Shown one piece after another: positions 3,001 through 30,569 of a DNA stretch of 64,000 nt. The DNA is from Proteromonas lacertae (Eukaryota > Sar > Bigyra > Opalinata > Proteromonadidae). The notes under the pieces were generated by a model. The model was not told the origin of the DNA and did not search any database. It saw only the letters and a list, made by a program, of their open reading frames with translations. The position numbers were made by a program, and so were the translations under genes. How positions within the stretch are numbered: position 1 is the stretch's first letter; each line of letters opens with the position of its first letter. The stretch covers positions 1-64,000 of the forward strand of contig NGBS01000031.1 of the NCBI GenBank assembly GCA_002245135.1, given 5' to 3'.

Positions 3001-6000
3001 TAGATGAGCGAACAAAAGAATTATATAAGAATTGGGAAGATTGTTATAATGATAGTCGTACTTGGATGAATGAAGGTGACAAACTATACAAGAATCGATA
3101 TTTCAGTTTAGCTTATGATTTTTATGAAGAAAGTGCGAAACGCTCAAATTGTGATAAAGAGATATTGAATGAGAAAGAATGTTTATTAGGAACGAAAGAA
3201 CACAATGATAAAATAATTGAAAAGAGTTATAATGATATAAAAGATGAAGAAAAGAAGAAAGATTTAGATGTAGAAATCGAAAAAGAGTAAGAATGATATA
3301 AAACCCAATTTCGATAGTAAGATGGATGATATTTGTGAAGAAATTTAAAGATTGAAGAGAATGATTTAACTGAATTTGAAGATGAGCGATTAGGTGATAA
3401 TCCATTTATAGAAGAAGAAAACAAACGATTGAAAGAAGAAATTTGTAAATTGGAGAAAGATTTAAACAGTAGTGAATTGAAGAATAATGATTTAGAGAAA
3501 GAGATGATAGATTTGAAGAAAGAACTAAATGATTTAGAGAATGTGAAGAAAGAGTTGATGGATAAAACTCGAGATATTCCTAAGCTTGAAGATGATTTAA
3601 AAGAAAAGACTCAAAACATAAGTGATTTAGAGAAAGAAGTAAAAGACTTATTAGATAAGTTAAGTAAGAGTGGTGAAAAGAAACTGAAAGAAAATCCAAC
3701 AATAAATATGAAAGAATTCTTCAAAGAACATGAAGCTGAGAATCTCGAAATGAAACGACTATTATTATTACGAAATCGTTGTTTCGAACTATTCAAGAAT
3801 CAACAAATATGAGAAATGTATAAAATATGTGAAATAATCCAAAATAAGATGAAAGAGAACAATTACAATGATGATGAAGAAGGTGAAATTATATCGAATA
3901 ATCGTGAGAGTTATTACAAGTTATACATAAATGATAATAAATATAAATGAATTAATAAAGAGTCAAGAGAACTATGTGATAGCATTGAAATATACAAAGA
4001 ATGCAGGAAATGCTAGTGTATTACATCGTATAAGTGAGATTTACTATGAAGGTAATAATTTCGATGCTAGTTTATCTTTATTGATATCTATAATCAATCG
4101 ATTCCCAAATTATAATCGATTGAACGAAGTAATCTTTTTATGTGGTTGTATATTGAAATCTAAGAAAGATTATAAACAAAGTATCGATTATTTCCAACAT
4201 TTGGTGAATGTTTGTCCAAATGATTTTAAGAGTAGTGATATATGGTTAATAATTGGTTTATGTTTAGAAGAAAGTAATTCTAATCAAAATGTGACAAGTT
4301 ATAAACGATATTATAGTAATTTAGATGAGCGAACAAAAGAATTATATAAGAATTGGGAAGATTGTTATAATGATAGTCGTACTTGGATGAATGAAGGTGA
4401 CAAACTATACAAGAATCGATATTTCAGTTTAGCTTATGATTTTTATGAAGAAAGTGCGAAACGCTCAAATTGTGATAAAGAGATATTGAATGAGAAAGAA
4501 TGTTTATTAGGAACGAAAGAACACAATGATAAAATAATTGAAAAGAGTTATAATGATATAAAATGAAGAAAGAAGAAAGATTTAGATGTAGAAATCGAAA
4601 AGAGTAAGAATGATATAAAACCCAATTTCGATAGTAAGATGGATGATATTTGTGAAGAAATTTTAAAGATTGAAGAGAATGATTTAACTGAATTTGAAGA
4701 TGAGCGATTAGGTGATAATCCATTTATAGAAGAAGAAAACAAACGATTGAAAGAAGAAATTTGTAAATTGGAGAAAGATTTAAACAGTAGTGAATTGAAG
4801 AATAATGATTTAGAGAAAGAGATGATAGATTTGAAGAAAGAACTAAATGATTTAGAGAATGTGAAGAAAGAGTTGATGGATAAAACTCGAGATATTCCTA
4901 AGCTTGAAGATGATTTAAAAGAAAAGACTCAAAACATAAGTGATTTAGAGAAAGAAGTAAAAGACTTATTAGATAAGTTAAGTAAGAGTGTGAAAAGAAA
5001 CTGAAAGAAAATCCAAACAATAAATATGAAAGAATTCTTCAAAGAACATGAAGCTGAGAATCTCGAAATGAAACGACTATTATTATTACGAAATCGTTGT
5101 TTCGAACTATTCAAGAATCAACAATATGAGAAATGTATAAAATATGGTGAAATAATCCAAAATAAGATGAAAGAGAACAATTACAATGATGATGAAGAAG
5201 GTGAATTATATCGAATAATCGGTGAGAGTTATTACAAGTTATACATAAATGATAATAATATAAATGAATTAATAAAGAGTCAAGAGAACTATGTGATAGC
5301 ATTGAAATATACAAAGAATGCAGGAAATGCTAGTGTATTACATCGTATAAGTGAGATTTACTATGAAGGTAATAATTTCGATGCTAGTTTATCTTTATTG
5401 ATATCTATAATCAATCGATTCCCAAATTATAATCGATTGAACGAAGTAATCTTTTTATGTGGTTGTATATTGAAATCTAAGAAAGATTATAAACAAAGTA
5501 TCGATTATTTCCAACATTTGGTGAATGTTTGTCCAAATGATTTTAAGAGTAGTGATATATGGTTAATAATTGGTTTATGTTTAGAAGAAAGTAATTCTAA
5601 TCAAAATGTGACAAGTTATAAACGATATTATAGTAATTTAGATGAGCGAACAAAAGAATTATATAAGAATTGGGAAGATTGTTATAATGATAGTCGTACT
5701 TGGATGAATGAAGGTGACAAACTATACAAGAATCGATATTTCAGTTTAGCTTATGATTTTTATGAAGAAAGTGCGAAACGCTCAAATTGTGATAAAGAGA
5801 TATTGAATGAGAAAGAATGTTTATTAGGAACGAAAGAACACAATGATAAATAATTGAAAAGAGTTATAATGATATAAAAGATGAAGAAAAGAAGAAAGAT
5901 TTAGATGTAGAAATCGAAAAGAGTAAGAATGATATAAAACCCATTTCGATAGTAAGATGGATGATATTTGTGAAGAAATCTTAAAGATTGAAGAGAATGA

Positions 6001-18620: not shown

Positions 18621-20413
18621 ATGTTGTTGTTTGTAGTGTTTTTGTTGTCATTAACTATACCAACACACAGTTATAAAATAGGCTTCATAATAAATTCAGG
18701 TTCTGAGAGTGAGAAGCAAGAGTATGATCTATTTAGTAAATACCTTACTAAAAAGGACAACACCATCACAGTTACTGAATTTACTTATGATGGGACTATT
18801 GATAAATTCATTACAGTATTGAATGAAATAATCGACGATAACAAGGCCGATTTGTTATACACTAATTGTACAGAAGATATTTTACATATGGATATGAAAT
18901 CTATAGAAGAGAGTAATAAATTGTTGTGGTGTACAAACTCTTATAATGTAGGTGTGTGTAATCACAATATAGTCTCAGGAAATTCAATAGTATCACCATT
19001 GAAAGAGAGTATGTTCAATTATTATCTTATATATTCTAGTTGATTTCAAAACTGCACTGTCTTCCAACTATATGGCTGTAGTATCAGGAATAGAAAGTGA
19101 ATATGATGCATTCTGGACATTGAGAATTGATAATTTAGGTGAAATATACGGACAGAAGACTATATATGATGCAACTCAAGGTTCATTACAAGAGAATAAT
19201 ATAACGTACTTAGTTAATTTGATTAAATCCGATGAGTATAAAGACAAACAATTACAAATATACGTTTCAATAAGAAATGAAATATTATTAAAGAAATTTA
19301 TAGATGAAGTTGGTGATTTAGGAAAAGAAATATTATTCTTTAAAGGTGGTCCAAATGAAAAGAGAATAATAGAAATAGCAAAAAATGCTGGTATTGAAAG
19401 TAAACTAAATGGACATTCAATATTGCATATTTATGATGATGACGCAGATTCTAATACTGCATACAGTGATATAATTATTGATTTATTCCCTTCTCTTAAT
19501 GTTGCTGATAGATTATCCCATGATAATGATGTTTTTATGATAGGATTAGCCAATATTGTAGTAGATGTATTTGACAGAGTAAATACCAATAATATATTAG
19601 ATATATTACCATTTATATATAATAATGAATATTCATATCCTGGTGGTAAATTAGTATTATTAGAGAATAACAATATAGCTACATCGTGGTATATGTATAA
19701 GTTTGTATATGATTCTACTGCAACTCCAGCAATATCTACTAAAAGAGATAGTGTTATTGCATTGAATAAAGGTTTTACTCATGATCAATATTTTGACAGA
19801 TATTACAGTGAAAGATGTAATTTATTAAATCCAGATAAGAATGTAACTGAATTAGATGTTATTAAAACATTAATGGTTACTGAATATAATTTGAATTTAA
19901 ATGATAAATTGTTGAGAAGAATGCTACATGAGATGGTTAGTTATTATAATGAAAATGTATATACTTTTATTGTTTATATTTTATATATTATGTTATAGAA
20001 ACCAATTCAAGGTAAATTCATCGAATTAATTTCATTAACATTTGATCCAAATGATGATAAGTCATTAACAGAAACAATAGAGAAGATAAATGATTTAGCT
20101 GAGAATGCAACAATTTCAGCAGTATTCTTATATACATCAGTTGAGAGAAGAGTGAAAGTAGCCACTGGTATATTATTATAATAATTATATATATTATAAA
20201 TAGAAGTTGATCCTAATTTATTGATATTTTATCTTGGAGCTGTAGAAGGTGATCATTGTAGTGATAATGTTATTTATGTATAAATATTTAAATATATATA
20301 TATATAATTTATAGTGTGATATGATTAATATGAATTACATTCAATTAGTTTCATTATACTTGAGAGAAAATGTAGAATCGAAAGATATCTATATAGTTGG
20401 TAGTGTTCAAACG

Positions 20414-20451
<38 letters not shown>

Positions 20452-23400
20452 AATATATATATAGTTATGGTTCAAAAACAAGAAAATTATTGAGAGAATA
20501 TTTGATCAATAGAGATGGTTATACAACCAGTGAAATTCTATCATCTGATATAAGATACGGTACTAAAGATGAATGTAATGAAACAGCAATAATGATAAAG
20601 ACAAAATATGAAAATGGGTGTGTTGTTGTAGTTACAGCTGAAATTGATTATATCTTACAGTTATATAATGCATTTAAAGCTAATAATGTAACAAATTCTT
20701 TTGGATATCATGTTATATTCTTTACATTGGATGAATTAACAGCATATTCATATATAGTATGAGTGTTATTGTTATTGAATTATAGATTGAGGATGTATCA
20801 TTTGTTGCTCATTATTATAATGGTTATAAATACAATGGGAAAACTGATATGTTAATAGAATTGTTTAGTAAAAAAATAGAAGATTTAGTTGGTCTAAAAT
20901 TACCATTTACTGCTACACTTGGTATTGGATATAATTCATTTCAACAGTGGGCAAGTGCTGTACAATTATCATCCGATGATCCTGCAGTATATAAACAGTA
21001 TTTCAATCACCAAACCACCCCAAACCCAATTGCTGGTCCATATGAAATTTATTACAACGGATATGGTCAAGGATTATTACAAGTAGTGAAAATAAAAGAT
21101 GCAAAAAGCTTATCTTTTGTTCAAGAAAAACAAGATTATTATGCAAGACGTGCAAATGCATTTCATAATAATACACTCGCTTGTTCCTATAAAGATTCCT
21201 CCAAGAAGCCAATTCAACCAATATCTCAGTATAAAGTTGCTTTATTGTTGAATGTCAATACAGATGAAGGTTCAGAGAGGTATGAGGAGGCTCAGATGTT
21301 TAGTGATTTAATAAATCAAGATGGTGGTATAAATGGAAGAGATATACAAATCATAACTACAAAATATAATGGAAATCCATCAGAATTGAATGAAATAGTA
21401 AAAGAGTTAGTTAAAGATAAAGACTTATTGTTTTTCATTGGTACTACTAATACTGAAGAAAGGAATGCAATTAATGAGACTTTAATTAATGCTAAGAAAT
21501 TGTGTTTTTCAATTCATTCAAGCCCTGGTCAAGTTGCTTATCAAAATATTATTATTCTTAATAGATTACCACATCAACATCTTACTTATCACTTCTATAC
21601 TTCGATGGAATTGTTTGATTCATATGCAATTATGTATGATAATACAACCGAGTATAAAACTATTTTTTTTAATTATTATTATATTTTGTATAGAGAAAAA
21701 ATAGGTTTAGCCAATTATCTAATGAAAATGGGTAAAAATGTCAATCATATACCAGCTTTCGTTTATCCATTCAACAGCTCAATGCAATTAGCAGAATCAT
21801 TAGCAGATGAGGTAAGTGTTGATTTGAATATAACAAAACCAACATTACTATTTTCATTTATTGGTGATTCAATTGATAGTTTTATAAAGAATTATACATT
21901 GGATGGAAGTATGCATTTTATATTGATAGAAGATTTTATTGAATCGATGATTACTAATTATACACTATTTGAAGGTCATTTTTGTGAATCTTTTTATTTT
22001 TTAGATTTACCTAATTCAAAAAATCAAGAACTTAAGAAACAAATTGAAACATATAAAGGAATTCCTTCTGTAGTATTAAACAAATACTCTGTATTGATTT
22101 ATACAGCTTTAGAGATGATGAAAACATCAATTAGTATAACCAAAACAACAGAAGTGGATGATATAAGATATAAATTATATGCTACTGAATTAGACACTCC
22201 AATTGGTAAAATGAAAGTATTTAGTAATAATCATGTCAATCAATATAATATATTGAGAAAAATAAGTGGAAATGGTACATTAATTGCCGAATTTGAATTT
22301 CCAAGACAAATTTGTCCTATAGTTTATCATCCTTTGGATAATGACAGATTGTATTTTGATATATCATTTGCTTTAAATGAAGATCATACAAAACATGTAA
22401 AAGAAATAATAGGTATTGCATTTTATAGTAATATTGAAGCACGAGTTAATGCACTTATCAATTATGATGTATCAAGAATAGTGATTGAAGATGCGAATTA
22501 TAATGGTGGAATAAAAGGATATGAAGTTGTTACTGAGTTATATCAATGTCCAAAAGATGAAACAGTTGCAGCAGCAGAGATATTGAAGCTGAAGAATAGA
22601 GGTATTTATATAATAATTGGTGGTTGCGATACTAATCACAGAAATGATATGAGGACTATTGTAGAATCGATGAATATGGTGTTCTTTTACACTGGTTTTA
22701 ATGCAGGAGGTGATTGTTCAAAGAATATGTATAATTATATATAATTATATATATATATATATTCTATCATTTTCATATAGAGTATATATTTATGCTTCTC
22801 CTTCTCAGATTATTATTCCTCCCATTTTACATGTAATTTATCAAGAAAATGAAGATCCATTCCTTATATATTCATCCCATCCAGATTATGCTACAAGAAT
22901 TAATTTGTTGGTGAGTATTTTTGATGCATTTCCATTACAAATAACAGGGAAATATGCTGTTGATGAAGATGAAAAAAGTACTAAAATGATTAAGAATGCT
23001 ATTATTTCATTAAAGAAAATAATGCCAAATGGTGGACCTATCATTGTTTTGCTTAGAAGTACTTATATGGTAAATTTCTTAGATTTTATGTTAGAATTAT
23101 TATATGATAATAAAGACTTTTCAAGCAGAGAAGAATTCTTTAACTATTACCGAATTTATGCATTAGATTCATCTCATACTTATTTTGAACATGGTGAGAA
23201 ATATCCAAATGTAAAAATATCAACTCCATTTTTAGTAATAAAAGATGATAAAGTAAATGCGCAATACTTTAATGATTATATGAAATTAACCAATAAGAAT
23301 CTACCTAGTTTTGTAAATGTAGTAGAAAATGTAGCAACAAGTTTCGCAATTCAAATATTGAAAGATGTCTCAACAATTGATCCAGATTCTTTATTAAAGC

Positions 23401-26400
23401 AAATATATACTTCAAGAATTCAAACAGTATTAGGTTCAACAATCTCTGATAAAGGAAATCATATAGATCAGTATTTATATTGCCGGACATATTGATAAAA
23501 GTGGCTTTGTTATGTATGATGTAACATTATCAAGAACATGGGATGGTGATCCATGGAGAGATTCATTCAATATGATTGATTATTACAGATGCGATTGGGT
23601 TGATCTTAAAGAAGAAAAAAAGAAAGTTGAGTTGTATAGATTTGTTGTTTTTGTATCAGCTAATCCATTATATAAGGTAGCTTCTGTTCAGTATTATAAT
23701 GCTTTATTTACCAGTATTTCAAGAATTAATATGATTGGTGGAATAAGAGGTAAATATACATGGCCAATTGTTCTTTCTGATAGAAATAATGAAACTTATG
23801 TGATTGAACAGATTAATTACTTTTATAATACTTATACAATAAAAGTATATTTAGGTGGATTTACTTCAAACATTAGAAATGCAATGCAAAAAGCTGCTGA
23901 TAATATTGATATTATATTATTCTTCCCATCAAATTTTGAAGGAGATGAATGTCATAGAAAAGGATTATATTTTGGTTTTCCATATCAATCCTATTTAGTT
24001 ATGTTACCTTGGATATTATCGAATTCTCAAGGTAATATTATTATGATTTACTCAGATACTGAATTTGCTAGAACATATTATGATAAACTTCTCCAAGATT
24101 TACAAGCATTTGATTTGAGTGCGCAATTTGTATTGAATATTCCAGTAAACCAGAATAATGTTACTACATCGTGTGAAATTATTAGTAGAATGAATCTAGG
24201 AAAAGGTTTAATTGTTTCATTCTTAGAAGGAGAATCTGCAAAATCATTATTTTCTGCTATGAAAGTGAATAAATTAGAAGAACCAAACTTTATTAGTGTT
24301 TCGATTGCTATTGATGATATATCAGTTTATGATATTGGAGAAGATTCTGTTGGACATTATTATTGGGATACTTTTTACAGAGACATTAACGATTCAGTAA
24401 TGCTTGATGGTGAAGGAGCTTTATTAAATCTATTTTCGTTTTATCCATATGTTAATACAATAATGGTAAATGGAATGGATTCATTGAATAGTTTCTATTA
24501 TGGAATGAATCAGTTATCAGTTGATAGTATTACAGCTGCTAATTTACATGAAATGGTATTACAAAGTACATTTGATTATGTAAGAGGAAAAGGTATTCCA
24601 TTTACTAAGAGTGGTGTATTATATAGTAATAATTATTTGAAACATGTTGATGCGTTTGAAAATGGAAAACCAGTGATTTCATTAACTTATCAAAGTGATA
24701 GTTTAATTCCATCATATACATTTGGTTGTATTTATCATGATACAATAATTAAACGTTGTGATTGGACACAAGCTGTAAATGATATTATTGAATATAGTAA
24801 TGTAAAAATTGGTGTTATATTTTCTACAACTGGTGAATTAAGAAATATAGAAAGAAGATCAATTCATGGTGTTTTTACAGCTATTAAAGAATTATATTAT
24901 GAGTATGATCCAATTCAAAATTCATTTATAACTATAAAACATTTTGATTATAGGAGTGATATAAATTATTTAGATGAAAATATAGATGAATTCCTAAAAG
25001 ACAATCAAATAAAAGTCGTTGTAGGATGTTCTGCAAATGATTGTAAACTAGTTTTATTATCACATCTTGAAAAAATGGCAAATCCTCCACCATTTTTATA
25101 TGGAAGATTGACATTAGGTCAAGCTTGTAGTCCATTAGTATATCAAACCAAATTTAGTGCCTGATCAATTTGTTAATAGATTATTGGAATATTCAATTAC
25201 TACCAAGTTCGCTACTAATTTATATTTGATTATAGAAGAGAATTATGGTGTTTATAGTTTTGATGAAGTAGTTGAAGATGCATCAAGTGGTTTATATACT
25301 TATAAAGGAGATCACAAAGTATCAGAAAACAAACCAATAACACAAGCCACTGTATTAGAAATTAGAGAATTGATGGAAGAAGGTGGTATTATTATAACTG
25401 CATTAAGTCAAGTAGATTTGTTGAAATTCTTACAATTATTTAATAAATTGAGATTTGATAGTGAAAAATTTGCTATTTTTGATGTTTTATTAGAGGAAGA
25501 GCATTTTGATACATTTTTACCAGCTTATAGAAAGAATGTTTACAAATTTGCTAGATATTATAAAGATATTCCAACAGAAGCAAATGAAAAATTCAAGAAT
25601 AAAGTATTCCATTATACCAGTCAAACAGAACCAACAGCAATGTTAGAAAGTGTTTATGGATCGATAATGTTATGGTATAATGCAGCAAAGAAATGTGGTT
25701 GTTTTGATCCAAATGAAATAAGAAAAACAATTCATGGTTTAAGTGTAGATGTTGGAAGTGGAGTTTTAACAATGACAGAAAACAATTATGCAACTGCTCC
25801 ATTCTTTGTTGCAAGATATGCAGCTGATGGTAATAAATTAGAATCTGTTTTCTTTAAATATGAAGCTGAAGTACCATCACCTTGGAGTTGGAATGTAAAA
25901 GCAACATTTGGTTATAAATGTAGTTTTAAAGATAATGTTAATAGAGAAATGTATAAAGTTCCAGTGAAAAGAGTATTACTTGCTGCTGGTTTAACTGGTT
26001 CATTATCCTCAACAACAATGGGTTTAGTTGATGCTTTCCAATTAGCAATTAATGAAGTTAATAATAATGGTGGAATTGGTGGTTATACAATAAAAGCTGA
26101 TATTATTGATATGAAATCTGATCCAGAATATTGTAAACAGTCTTTGTCTAATTATTTATCTGATGAAGTTGCTACTATGTTTTTATTTGTATTACCTGCT
26201 TGTGCTAATTATTTCATTGAAAATGATATATTAGTTAATAGGAAAATGTTAATCTTTATGGTTAGAGAACAAAGATTAGGTTTTTGTGATCAAAATGTAG
26301 CTAATGCTGTAGATCATGTTTCTTTATATAAACATATAGTTGCTGTTATTCATTCAAGATTTTATAAAAGAGTATTTGTTTTGTCGAATAGTGCAGATGA

Positions 26401-29400
26401 TGAAAAAGCTACTTATATGTTTGATGAATTAACTAATGTTTGGGTTGAGACATATAATTATACTGAAAGTATATTTACTACTAGAAACTTATACAGTTTT
26501 ATAAATCGTTACAATAATAATAATGATGCTGCAAAATCAAATTGCATTTTATTCTTTGGTGAAATAAATGATTTTACTATACTAATGTCAGTATTAGCAA
26601 TTAACAATATTAATAAGAATAAACAATTTCATATTATTGTAATGAAGAATGCTGATAAAATAAGAACATTAAAAGAATATTACAGTTCAGGATATGAAAT
26701 ATTTGGATTTTATGAACAAGACTATGATACAGAAATCAATAATGTCTTTAAGACAAATATGTATCAGAGAATTACAGCTGATAGTTATATATCTGATTCA
26801 ATGGTTAGATTATATTCATCAATCAAACTGTGGTCATTAGCTATTAATAAATTACCATTAGATACTACCGATAAGGAAGGTAATAAAGTCTCTAGTTTAG
26901 ATTTCAATGAAATGAGAGTGAATCTAAGATCTGTTACATTTGATAGTCCAAGTGGTTTAACGCATTTTGGTGCAAATCAATATTTAGCAAGGATTGGATT
27001 TCTATCACAAATGCAACCAGATGGAAAAGCGAAAGTTATTTATACTACTGAAGTACCTCATGTTCCTGAAGCTTGGCCATTTATTGAAGGAAGATATACA
27101 AAATGTGATTTTGATGATTCAAATGTTGATTCTCAAAAGCAAATGAATACTTATACTATAGCAATTGTATTATCGTTTACAGGTGGTGATAATATAAATG
27201 GCGTGAGATTATATCATAGTTTAGCTGCTGGATTAGATCAAATTAATGAAGATGGTGGTTTATTAGATTATTATTTAACATATCAGTTATATAATGCTAA
27301 TTCGAGTGATGATCAGTATGTTAGTATTATTAATGACATTATTAAAAATACACAAATTATTTATGTATTTGGTGGTAATTTACCTGATACTCTAGAAGTT
27401 ATTGCTCCATTATTTGATAATACAGTAAAAGGATTGTTCTTCTTAGGTAGAGGATATGGAGATAAATGTTATTCAAATGCCATTATTGCTTCTGTCCCAC
27501 CAGAACCTTTAGCAAGAGAAACAATTAGAAGAATGTTGGAACTTTCAACTTCAACCTATTTAGTTTATAACGATGATCCTTATATTCTGTTTTTATTAGA
27601 AAAATTTACTGAATTAATGGAAAACCTACAAATGACATTAAGTGGTAGTAGTAATATAAAAGATGGTAAAAGATGTGTAACAAATATTAAATCTGCTTTA
27701 CCAAATGGTGGTTATATCATTAATATGATAATGGGAGCTGGTCCAATGAAAGAATTTTACAAATATATTGCTGAAGAAGGTATGTATTCTCCTACTTACA
27801 CATTTATTGACATATTTATTGATGTAAATTTGTTAAGAACAATGGATAAGAAATTATTAACTGGACATATATTCTTAGGAACATTCTTTGAAGAATTAAT
27901 TGACTCAAATCTTAATAAAGTTGGAGATATTCCATATATTGGTAAACAGTTTGTACAAAATGTACATATTAGAACTGGTGATTATTATCTAAGTAGTGGA
28001 ATAGAAATACCATATATTCAGACTTTAATATTTAATTCAGTGATAAAGAAATCAAATAGTTTCAATTTTGAGTCATTAATGACTATGTATAATTATCCAA
28101 TTGAAGTACCAAGTTATACAGCTGAAGTGATGGCTAATAATTACGTAGCAAGAATGGAATTTGCTGGAACAGTTCAAGCTGATGGTACAGTAGTTGTTGA
28201 TTGGCATCCTAATGATTATTTTAAAGTTAATCCTTATTATGGTTATAATACTTCAACAGTTGGTTATAAATGTGATTGGGTTGTAGAACAGAAAGAAAAG
28301 GTGTATACTGATCCAATAGTTGTTGGATTTTTACATGAAAGAGATATTGGCGGAGAAACTGAGATTTATAATTCGTTATTACAAGATATGATTATTGATG
28401 AAATTAATAGTGCTGGTGGTGTTGGTGGTAGAACAATAGCTGCTGTTCATTATTGGGTTATTATTAACGATGCTTATAAAACAACAAGAGAAATATTAGA
28501 AGATGGAAAAGTAAATGTAATTATGGGTTGTTTAACTCCTGAATGTAGAAATGAAGTTAATAGATATTTAGATACTCATGATTTCTTATATATTTATCCA
28601 GGAAGAGATGATGGTTACAGTTGTTCAGAGAATACAATTTATACTGGTTTAACTATTAATCAGAAATTAGATCCATTATTTTTGTATTTAAATAAATTAG
28701 GTATTGAATCATTATATGTAGTTGGTTCATTAAGAAACAGTTCTAGAACAGAATATTATCAAATTTCACAATATGCAGAAAAGAATAATTATCCAATTAT
28801 TGGTTCATCATTCTTTACTCCTTTCAGTTCAAGTGCTTTAGATAATTGTGTTGAAGATGTGGTAAAACTATTAGAAACAAATACAAGAGTTGCAGTAGTT
28901 GATCTATTAGTTGCCAAAGAAAATGAGTTGTTTTTAGCTTCGTTTTTAGGTAATAGTGTTATTAAAATGTCAGTAACAATGATTCTTATGAATTATGATC
29001 CATCTGATTTATCTACTGAAACATTGAATAATTTAGAAGGTTCTTATGTTGTTACTTCTTACTATGAAACAATTAAAAACACTCTATCTAATTCACTGAA
29101 ACTGACAAAGACAAAAAGATATCAAAATGCAGTTTCAATATCAGAGATTATAGAGAATAGCTATGATGCTTTATATGTATGGAAAGCTGCTGTAGAATAT
29201 GCAAAAACTCAAACTTCTGATGCATGGCCAACTGCAAATTATGTTAAATTGAGTTTCAAATACGTAACAGTTGATACACCTTCGGGAATGATTACTATTA
29301 AAGATACAAATCATATTATGAAATCTGTTTATATATTCAGAATAACCAATAGAAATTTGAATTTGGTTTATCCAAATCAAGGTATTCAATATCAAGTAGA

Positions 29401-30569
29401 AGCAGAAATGACTTATATTTCTAATGATAAATGTGTTTTTTCTAAATATATTGAATATTATGAATATAATGAAGCTTTAAAATCAGTTACAATTGCTATT
29501 GTAGTTATTGATTTAGTATGTGCAGCTGCAATTGCCTCAATTGTTTACTTTTTTAGACATGCAAAAGTTATTAAAAGTGCCAGTCCTTTATTCTTATATT
29601 ATTCATGTTTTGGTCATATATTATTGTCTTTATCCAGTCTTGTGTATAATTATGAACCAACTAATACAGCAGTTTGTGCATTTAGAATATGGTTTGTCTC
29701 TTTATCATTAGATTTGGTGTTTAGTATTTTATTCTGTAAAGCATGGAGAATTCATAAACTATTTAACAATAAAGAGATGAAGAGAGTCAAAGTGTCAAAC
29801 ACTCAGTTGATTGAAATGATTGGTATTATATTAGGTTTCCAAGCCATTTATTTAATGATATGGCAATTGGTAATGCCATCTGAACCAACGTTGACATATA
29901 ATAATGGTTATAGTACTTTCTTAAAAGATGTATATGTTAGAGAATGTTCATCAGCTACTGTTTTTATGTATATAATAATATTATTATTATTATTATTTAT
30001 ATAGTGTAATTGAATTGATTGCTATATTTGCTTTATTCTTATTTGGAGCAAAAATGGCATGGAGTGTTAGAAATGCTTCTGCAGAGTTTAATGAATCTAT
30101 GTCTTTAATGTCAACAATTGGTTTTATAAGTATATATATATATTATTATTATTATTTAAATATAGTTATTCTTGGTATTTTGGAAGTTCCATTAAATTAT
30201 CTTTTAGCTTCAGAGCCAAGTACATTAATGATATTAAGAACATTTGGAATATCAATTGGAGCATTTGCTGTATTAGTTATTCAATTTTCACCAAAATTGA
30301 TTTATTTATATGAGAATGAAATGTCAACTACATTTGGCTCTTCTACAGAGAATAGTAATTCAAATAATAGAAGTAAAGCGTTAAGAAGAGCTGCATCAAG
30401 AGGAAATTTCTCAGTTAAACCAGATTTATTGAAATATGGAGGAATGGCTTTAAGTACAATATCTCATCCTGATAAATTCTATGAAAGAAATCCAATTAAC
30501 TCTTGCTCAACTTCTAGAAAAACTACAAATGGTAATAAATCAAGTTCAAGAAGTTCTGCAAGAGTATAG
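18621..30569 (+). CDS. class C GPCR-like receptor with nine tandem Venus flytrap modules
   Basis: Exons are 18621-19008, 19040-19956, 19999-20167, 20204-20277, 20315-20412, 20465-20756, 20786-21651, 21694-22728, 22781-29967, 30005-30129 and 30166-30569. Two apparent AT losses (about 23,478 and 25,140) interrupt the long exon; with them allowed for, the protein is about 3,852 residues. It has a signal peptide (MLLFVVFLLSLTIPTHS), nine type-1 periplasmic-binding-fold modules, a class C seven-helix domain and a short Ser/Arg-rich cytoplasmic tail. The modules most resemble bacterial urea/short-chain-amide binding proteins (EINSAGGVGGRTI, GYSCSENTIYTGLTINQK). Family knowledge predicts a cell-surface G-protein-coupled receptor for small ligands. 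Which modules bind, and what, is unknown. GABA-B and glutamate receptors carry one such module, so the architecture is highly unusual. No intact cysteine-rich linker domain is seen. Confidence 0.9.
18675..29434 (+). repeat. nine tandem extracellular ligand-binding (PBP1-fold) modules
   Basis: Approximate modules are 18675-19818, 19850-21184, 21225-22315, 22370-23592, 23625-24759, 24795-25921, 25965-27106, 27150-28273 and 28305-29434. Each ends with a strand such as IxxDGxxxVV and then a lone cysteine followed closely by an aromatic or aliphatic residue: RCNL, ACSY, ICPI, RCDW, RCDW, KCSF, KCDF, KCDW, KCVF. Most modules also carry an N-terminal NxxGGIxG-type loop and a central GxxCxxNxIY-type motif, as in urea/amide substrate-binding proteins. 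Modules 8 and 9 match the bacterial pattern best; 1 and 3 are most degenerate. Copies are too diverged to be recent duplicates. Confidence 0.85.
20413..20464 (+). repeat. AT dinucleotide run inside a 52-nt intron
   Basis: The intron between receptor exons 5 and 6 is almost entirely TA/AT dinucleotides, bounded by GTATTA and ATATAG. Similar (AT)n introns occur at 22,729-22,780 and 62,628-62,678. They are length-variable candidates and places where sequence consensus may be unreliable. Confidence 0.8.
29470..30340 (+). other. class C GPCR seven-transmembrane domain
   Basis: Seven hydrophobic segments follow the ninth module. TM1 is around VTIAIVVIDLVCAAAIAS and TM2 around FLYYSCFGHILLSL. TM3 is CAFRIWFVSLSLDLVFSILF, followed by CKAWRIHKLF. 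TM4 is around IIGLILGFQ-like IGIILGFQAIYLMIW, TM5 around VIELIAIFALFLFGA, TM6 around GFIIILGILEVPLNYLL and TM7 around GISIGAFAVLVIQFSPKLIY. Family hallmarks are visible: the TM3 Cys and the KxWRI motif, AWSVRNASAEFNES after TM5, and FSPK in TM7. Introns of 37 and 36 nt interrupt TM5 and TM6. Confidence 0.92.

Follow-up and report, generated by a model that had tools for sequence, protein, structure and literature searches.

We analysed a 64,000-nucleotide stretch of Proteromonas lacertae DNA (positions 1 to 64,000 of contig NGBS01000031.1; hereafter the window), in which the plus-strand gene at 18621-30569 reads as a single spliced protein of about 3,840-3,865 residues comprising, in order, a signal peptide, nine Venus-flytrap (VFT) modules (M1-M9), one class C seven-transmembrane (7TM) domain and a short tail. 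A preliminary description of the locus had proposed nine flytraps and one class C 7TM domain in a spliceable frame behind a hydrophobic N-terminus, and translation together with profile searches confirmed this layout at these coordinates and on this strand. Ten exons are joined via nine introns of 29-52 nucleotides (nt) with the pattern GTAT...TAG and an AT content of 76-95%. The frame changes at two more places outside these nine clear introns, near 23.48 kb and near 25.15 kb; entering each change as an X residue gives a 3,865-residue protein, while reading both as GT-AG introns (23471-23501, 31 nt; 25118-25157, 40 nt) gives an open frame of 3,841 amino acids (aa) with no base altered. Apart from these two places the spliced reading contains no internal stop. 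The features of the gene are as follows:

18621..18671, plus strand: start codon and predicted signal peptide MLLFVVFLLSLTIPTHS (translation; hydrophobic N-terminus judged by eye)
18672..19821, plus strand: M1, degenerate flytrap module, with intron 19009-19039 (hidden Markov model, HMM, built from paralogues only, 37.5 bits)
19888..21175, plus strand: M2 flytrap, with introns 19957-19998, 20168-20203, 20278-20314, 20413-20464 and 20757-20785 (Peripla_BP_5 52.1 bits)
21230..22369, plus strand: M3 flytrap (Peripla_BP_5 68.0 bits)
22409..23598, plus strand: M4 flytrap, with intron 22729-22780 and the frame step near 23.48 kb or intron 23471-23501 (Peripla_BP_5 56.1 bits)
23635..24765, plus strand: M5 flytrap, of the nine the nearest to the UrtA pocket motif (Peripla_BP_5 67.6 bits)
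24805..25927, plus strand: M6 flytrap, with the frame step near 25.15 kb or intron 25118-25157 (Peripla_BP_5 100.2 bits)
25970..27112, plus strand: M7 flytrap (Peripla_BP_5 64.4 bits)
27152..28279, plus strand: M8 flytrap (Peripla_BP_5 62.9 bits)
28319..29428, plus strand: M9 flytrap, membrane-proximal and the top-scoring module (Peripla_BP_5 128.4 bits; UrtA model TIGR03407 124.8 bits)
29477..30296, plus strand: class C seven-helix domain, with introns 29968-30004 and 30130-30165 (7tm_3 129 bits; GABA-B2 E 4.8e-18)
30297..30569, plus strand: short Ser/Asn-rich cytoplasmic tail and stop codon (translation)

Scanned against Pfam, with M4 and M6 carrying an X at the frame step, eight of the nine modules (M2-M9) scored above the Peripla_BP_5 cut-off of 27 bits (range 52.1-128.4 bits), and the 7TM domain, at 129 bits, lay well above the 7tm_3 cut-off of 33.5 bits. 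When compared with an HMM made from the modules of other genes in the genome, M1 scored 37.5 bits (E 7.6e-11) and M2 73.0 bits, and the highest scores among 500 shuffled versions of each were 2.9 and 3.1 bits, respectively. The profile search that the preliminary description had suggested as a check on its count thus yields eight modules with Pfam alone, fewer than the nine it called for, and nine once the paralogue profile is added. ANF_receptor exceeded its cut-off for M8 only (28.0 vs 25.4 bits). Elsewhere in the genome, stronger ANF_receptor matches (60-134 bits) occur at C244:37744-38714 and C992:123771-124619, perhaps in ordinary single-flytrap receptors.

The predicted flytrap ectodomain lies N-terminal to the 7TM domain, as is characteristic of class C G protein-coupled receptors (GPCRs). 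Among solved structures the 7TM domain matched GABA-B2 first (E 4.8e-18), with an alignment over its whole length, and the motifs CAFR, FCKAWR, VRECSS, FNES and SPK could be both read and aligned to GABA-B2, bearing out the complete set of seven-helix hallmarks claimed earlier. An excerpted account of class C hallmarks lists extracellular-loop cysteines, a basic residue in transmembrane helix 3 (TM3), an acidic residue before TM6 and PK in TM7 (PMC3727952). The likeness to GABA-B2 extends to a Lys that ends TM3 on the cytoplasmic side, ahead of AWR, to FNES in loop 3 and PK in TM7, and to a short flytrap-7TM linker that, as in GB2, has no cysteine-rich domain; the nine-cysteine-rich domain of mGlu, CaSR and taste-type receptors is absent here, since M9 and TM1 are separated by some 15-20 residues, which leaves no room for it. 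However, the window receptor differs from GABA-B in having nine flytraps instead of one, in their being of the UrtA/AmiC type (Peripla_BP_5) instead of the GABA-B type (ANF_receptor), and in belonging to a large gene family. Because the single GABA-B-type flytrap is missing, we do not file the predicted protein as a GABA-B receptor, and class it as a class C GPCR with what appears to be a new architecture.

Across the genome assembly (50.2 Mb in 1,181 contigs, the window lying in contig C253), 7tm_3 gave 132 match rows, duplicates and gene fragments included, and 36 of these (duplicates again included) fall in open frames that are 2,000 aa or longer, with a maximum of 3,672 aa; for Peripla_BP_5 there were 683 candidate places, 112 of them scored and matched. 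Distinct genes must be fewer than 132, because several rows are fragments of one gene or same-score duplicates on small contigs, and the matches suggest that the family comprises dozens of genes, perhaps a hundred. Two groups of contigs (C18/C475/C957/C287 and C304/C800/C914/C1021) show identical or nearly identical 7tm_3 scores, which suggests haplotype or repeat copies.

To this family we applied module chaining in ten paralogues picked for their long open frames (a biased choice) and in three further 10-kb stretches. All ten long-frame paralogues carry six or seven modules (at least 60% of the profile covered) in one uninterrupted frame, and in the same frame a 7tm_3 match that is nearly complete in 9/10 and spans positions 3-178 of 251 in C104; the linkage between modules and 7TM domain is therefore independent of how the window gene is spliced. 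Additional modules lie upstream in the paralogues, broken between frames. Automated chaining at a loose threshold (E < 0.05) counted nine modules in 8/10 paralogues, ten in C116, where the tenth is an isolated 9.5-bit match 1.7 kb upstream, and eight in C1043, where the chain has gaps of 893 and 1,240 bases. Across 1,332 frames of reversed decoys of the ten paralogues, the loose threshold let through one match and the strict threshold (E < 0.001) none. The three extra stretches, each ended by the 10-kb limit, held 9, 8 and 7 modules at the loose threshold and 9, 7 and 6 at the strict one. The predicted receptor is thus no singleton but belongs to a large family whose members mostly have nine modules. 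Chance fusion, which the preliminary description had already argued against, is excluded because the genome carries a whole family with flytraps and 7tm_3; together with the introns and the 7tm_3 match itself, this family also rules out bacterial contamination.

We then asked how the modules of different genes correspond, using hits at E < 1e-20 only and assigning positions by their distance from the membrane; the set offered no counterparts of M1 and M2, and close and divergent paralogues were divided after the scores had been seen. For each of M4-M9, the best match was the module at the same position in 6/6 close paralogues, and the same held for M3 in all five close paralogues with an M3 in the set. 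Four Logan proteins likewise keep the module order, some of their end modules being partial: P0125 corresponds to M3-M9, P0001 to M4-M9 and the 7TM domain, all in one frame, P0003 to M5-M9, and P0002 to M7-M9 and the 7TM domain. Since the order of M3-M9 is kept in close paralogues, the array predates the duplications among these genes and is ancestral to them. This positional orthology rules out a recent tandem duplication of modules. The nine window modules share 17-27% pairwise identity (median 22%), which likewise rules out avidity through near-identical modules.

Sequence divergence between family members is unevenly distributed along the array. We compared three paralogue pairs across M3-M9, leaving out M1 and M2, and found a clear gradient in two of them, with module identity rising from 0.43 (M3) to 0.83 (M9) in C104/C116 and from 0.41 to 0.72, distal to proximal, in C713/C356; in C830/C1089 the gradient was weak (0.54 to 0.67) and not monotonic. 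Nonsynonymous and synonymous divergence (dN and dS) both rise toward the distal modules, and dN/dS tends upward too (in C713/C356, 0.78 for M5 and 0.25 for M9). We read this pattern as a homogenised 3' half combined with relaxed or diversifying selection in the outer modules, two effects that the comparison does not separate.

The closest relatives of the modules are bacterial. Searched against solved structures, an M3-M9 profile retrieved UrtA first (8HIC, E 8.7e-45; 7S6E and 7S6F) and AmiC further down, which supports the earlier suggestion of a likeness to urea/amide-binding proteins. UrtA and AmiC (8HIC, 7S6E, 7S6F, 1PEA) belong to the same sequence family, Peripla_BP_5, and the modules partly retain their ECSxN and terminal CDW motifs; unlike these proteins, the receptor flytraps are eukaryotic, fused, present ninefold and part of a membrane receptor. 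Among the segments scanned with the UrtA model TIGR03407 (M9, M5 and part of M6), the best score was 124.8 bits (M9), against a cut-off of 492.75. The urea pocket of UrtA, as given in an excerpt of its description, is formed by W120, S122, Y141, Q144, E146, Y190, N246 and S274 (PMC10392092), and by sequence alignment this set of eight residues was complete in none of the nine modules. With both the model cut-off and the pocket set unattained, we do not file the predicted receptor as a UrtA.

Individual positions nevertheless differ in what they preserve. M5 reads F, S, F, N and E at positions 120, 122, 141, 144 and 146, keeping S122 and E146, and at position 5 of the six close paralogues W120 is present in 5/6, P142 in 4/6, D or N at 144 in 6/6, Y or F at 145 in 6/6 and E146 in 4/6. 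The window gene and all six close paralogues have RDDG or REDG at residues 144-147 of position 9. Little of the UrtA contact set is left in M3, M4, M6, M7 and M8. Of the nine module-end cysteines noted in the preliminary description, seven align with the C-terminal CDW cysteine of UrtA (those of M2 and M3 do not), and CDW itself is kept in M4, M5 and M8; these cysteines therefore mark descent and are no new linker device. Pocket and cysteine columns alike come from a sequence alignment made without structure. In most modules the ancestral urea pocket has probably been lost, and these modules would serve as modified pockets or as spacer.

Taken together, we think that the gene probably encodes a class C GPCR with nine UrtA-type flytraps on a GABA-B-like 7TM core, and that its family consists of environmental chemosensors. 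Such receptors would detect dissolved nitrogen compounds, amino acids, amides or other small polar molecules. In the usual model of class C activation, a pair of flytraps closes above a 7TM dimer; here, one or a few modules of the array would close on ligand, the fast-evolving distal modules being candidates for determining specificity, and the ligand-induced change would travel down the chain to the conserved M9. As M9 joins the 7TM domain through a short, GABA-B-like linker without a cysteine-rich domain, the proximal part may act as a conserved transducer, and the 7TM domain would in turn activate a heterotrimeric G protein. The genome contains 12 match rows for G-alpha and 85 for RGS. Against this small number of G-alpha genes, RGS domains are greatly expanded, and some frames (C85, C633, C371) contain several of them in a row; a 687-aa frame at C1118:51837-52937 (minus strand) combines an RGS match with a 7tm_3 match that is weak (25.1 bits, under the cut-off), a possible 7TM-RGS fusion. 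In a G-alpha protein search, Logan proteins (the first three at 99, 84 and 75% identity) and a EukProt entry labelled PLAT4981 (59%) ranked ahead of every named hit; the named hits include Triparma, a stramenopile (52%), Chattonella (48%), Batrachochytrium salamandrivorans (48%) and a bat G(z) protein (43%), the last with an E-value slightly better than that of Triparma, so that this ranking gives no more than a lead towards stramenopiles. Low G+C and the class C expansion had pointed to an anaerobic gut fungus as the source, but a search for the CBM_10 dockerin found none, which is weak evidence because the controls of that search gave no match either.

The preliminary description had left open whether the array would serve multi-ligand sensing or avidity. 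Simple avidity is unlikely, because the modules share 17-27% identity and none keeps the UrtA contact set; multi-ligand sensing would fit better, as would a long stalk on which a few modules bind ligand. A bolder form of the proposal, which we advance tentatively, is that the genes form an undescribed superfamily of dozens to about a hundred members, each with nine position-specific flytraps on a GABA-B-like 7TM domain and working as a multi-site chemical integrator instead of a receptor for a single ligand. In such a superfamily the distal 5' modules would diversify, the 3' half would be homogenised between genes, and several pockets would feed one 7TM domain.

Adhesion GPCRs use long ectodomains to hold contact sites off the cell, and the nine flytraps could by analogy form an adhesion or filtering antenna, chiefly a long spacer to keep a single binding module or contact site away from the cell, with small-molecule binding being vestigial. 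The loss of the UrtA contact set described above, incomplete in all nine modules and most severe in M3, M4, M6, M7 and M8, favours such a stalk, as does the recurrence of nine modules in 8/10 paralogues, which is expected if length is what matters. However, the pocket positions are not random, with RDDG or REDG at position 9 of the window gene and all six close paralogues and a partly UrtA-like set at position 5, and a spacer would not need module sequences that differ from one position to the next, so that we consider the antenna unlikely.

Several observations weigh against the chemosensor reading and the fixed array on which it builds. M1 had no relevant match in Pfam (its sole match was irrelevant, E 0.15). 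Chaining at E < 0.001 gave nine modules in 7/10 paralogues and eight in the other three; the chaining profile was iterated on the same loci and so is not independent of them, and selection for long frames favours high module counts. In the four divergent paralogues, same-position matches were found for M5 in 4/4, M6 and M9 in 3/4 each and M8 in 2/4, and for M3, M4 and M7 in 0/4, with no match above 51 bits. The gradient along the array may partly reflect gene conversion of the 3' half and not selection for ligand specificity, because dS is also higher distally. Finally, the two frame changes are not explained with certainty, and the window copy could be a recent pseudogene.

If a pseudogene or an assembly fault lay behind these frame changes, the window copy would be broken and would make no nine-module receptor. 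Both changes fall outside the nine clear introns, and no second copy of the stretches around 23.48 kb or 25.15 kb was found in the assembly for comparison. Two more GT-AG introns would complete the frame, which has no other internal stop, but the candidates are less AT-rich (71% and 68%), one ends in AAAAG and the other begins with GTCA, and in a by-eye comparison both would remove residues kept in P0001 and P0003. Since the candidate introns would delete residues that relatives keep, we lean to a one-base slip in the assembly or the gene at each place, which is equally possible or likelier. Searching with the 25.15-kb stretch retrieved a 75% identical paralogue on C1001, the closest found, whose frame runs open from M6 across the place of the second step. 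Over 1,467 codons the two genes share 66.7% aa identity (dN 0.23, dS 0.79), and the resulting dN/dS of about 0.3 shows purifying selection. A broken gene is improbable, and the architecture does not depend on the window copy. Still more remote is the idea that alternative splicing or internal promoters cut the chain into two or more transcripts and leave the 7TM receptor with fewer modules, for although the introns cluster in M1, M2, M4 and the 7TM domain and in paralogues, too, the upstream modules are split between frames, all ten long-frame paralogues join six or seven modules to 7tm_3 in one frame (in C104, to about 70% of the domain), and P0001 does so for M4-M9 and the 7TM domain.

To our knowledge, class C GPCRs carry at most one flytrap per chain, and no multi-flytrap class C receptor was found in the literature searched, which lacked most subscription papers. 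Anaerobic gut fungi have expanded their class C receptors to 24-51 per strain, about half of them with bacterial binding-protein ectodomains, according to an excerpted report (PMC5168858). These ectodomains are of SBP Type II (sugar-type), in N-terminal regions of 200-1,600 aa (PMC5168858, same excerpt), whereas that of the window receptor is of Type I, in nine copies and about 3,500 aa long. Among diatom class C-like GPCRs, seven are listed in a partial account with a PBP-like N-terminus, at lengths of 300 to just over 1,000 aa (PMC3727952), and a survey of class C receptors in animal relatives gives no per-receptor flytrap counts in its pertinent section (PMC12716839). Within these excerpts, none of the gut-fungal, diatom or animal-relative receptors is described with more than one flytrap (PMC5168858, PMC3727952, PMC12716839). 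Ciliates are reported, again in an excerpt, to have no class C receptors (PMC9960496), and in the portion of an account of social amoebae at hand the words 'tandem' and 'venus' are absent and no domain counts appear (PMC10445921). Protein searches, with about 8,000 candidates scored in each, returned only the four Logan proteins and one weak Culex GABA-B2, a result that leaves absence elsewhere unproven.

If expressed as read, the receptor would represent a new architecture for small-molecule sensing. Nine flytraps in a fixed order raise the questions of how a signal travels through successive hinges, whether several ligands can be integrated by one receptor and why the number stays at nine. 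In its UrtA-type pockets the family also provides a natural collection to study. It would also mean that a protist lineage built a large class C repertoire on a different bacterial binding protein from the one that animals used.

The remainder of the window holds further genes. On the minus strand at 30702-55491, a kinesin motor (Pfam 197 bits) appears to be joined, by splicing of two short introns, to a coiled-coil frame of 3,921 aa, which is followed, with one frame step near 42.5 kb, by a further coiled-coil frame of 3,943 aa. As a single protein the kinesin would be no shorter than about 4,300 aa and might reach about 8,200 aa, a length that would be exceptional for a kinesin. On the plus strand, two TPR-protein frames at 3-638 and 3931-4563, about 3.9 kb apart, have nearly identical starts over the first 90 residues compared, and they likely arose by local duplication.

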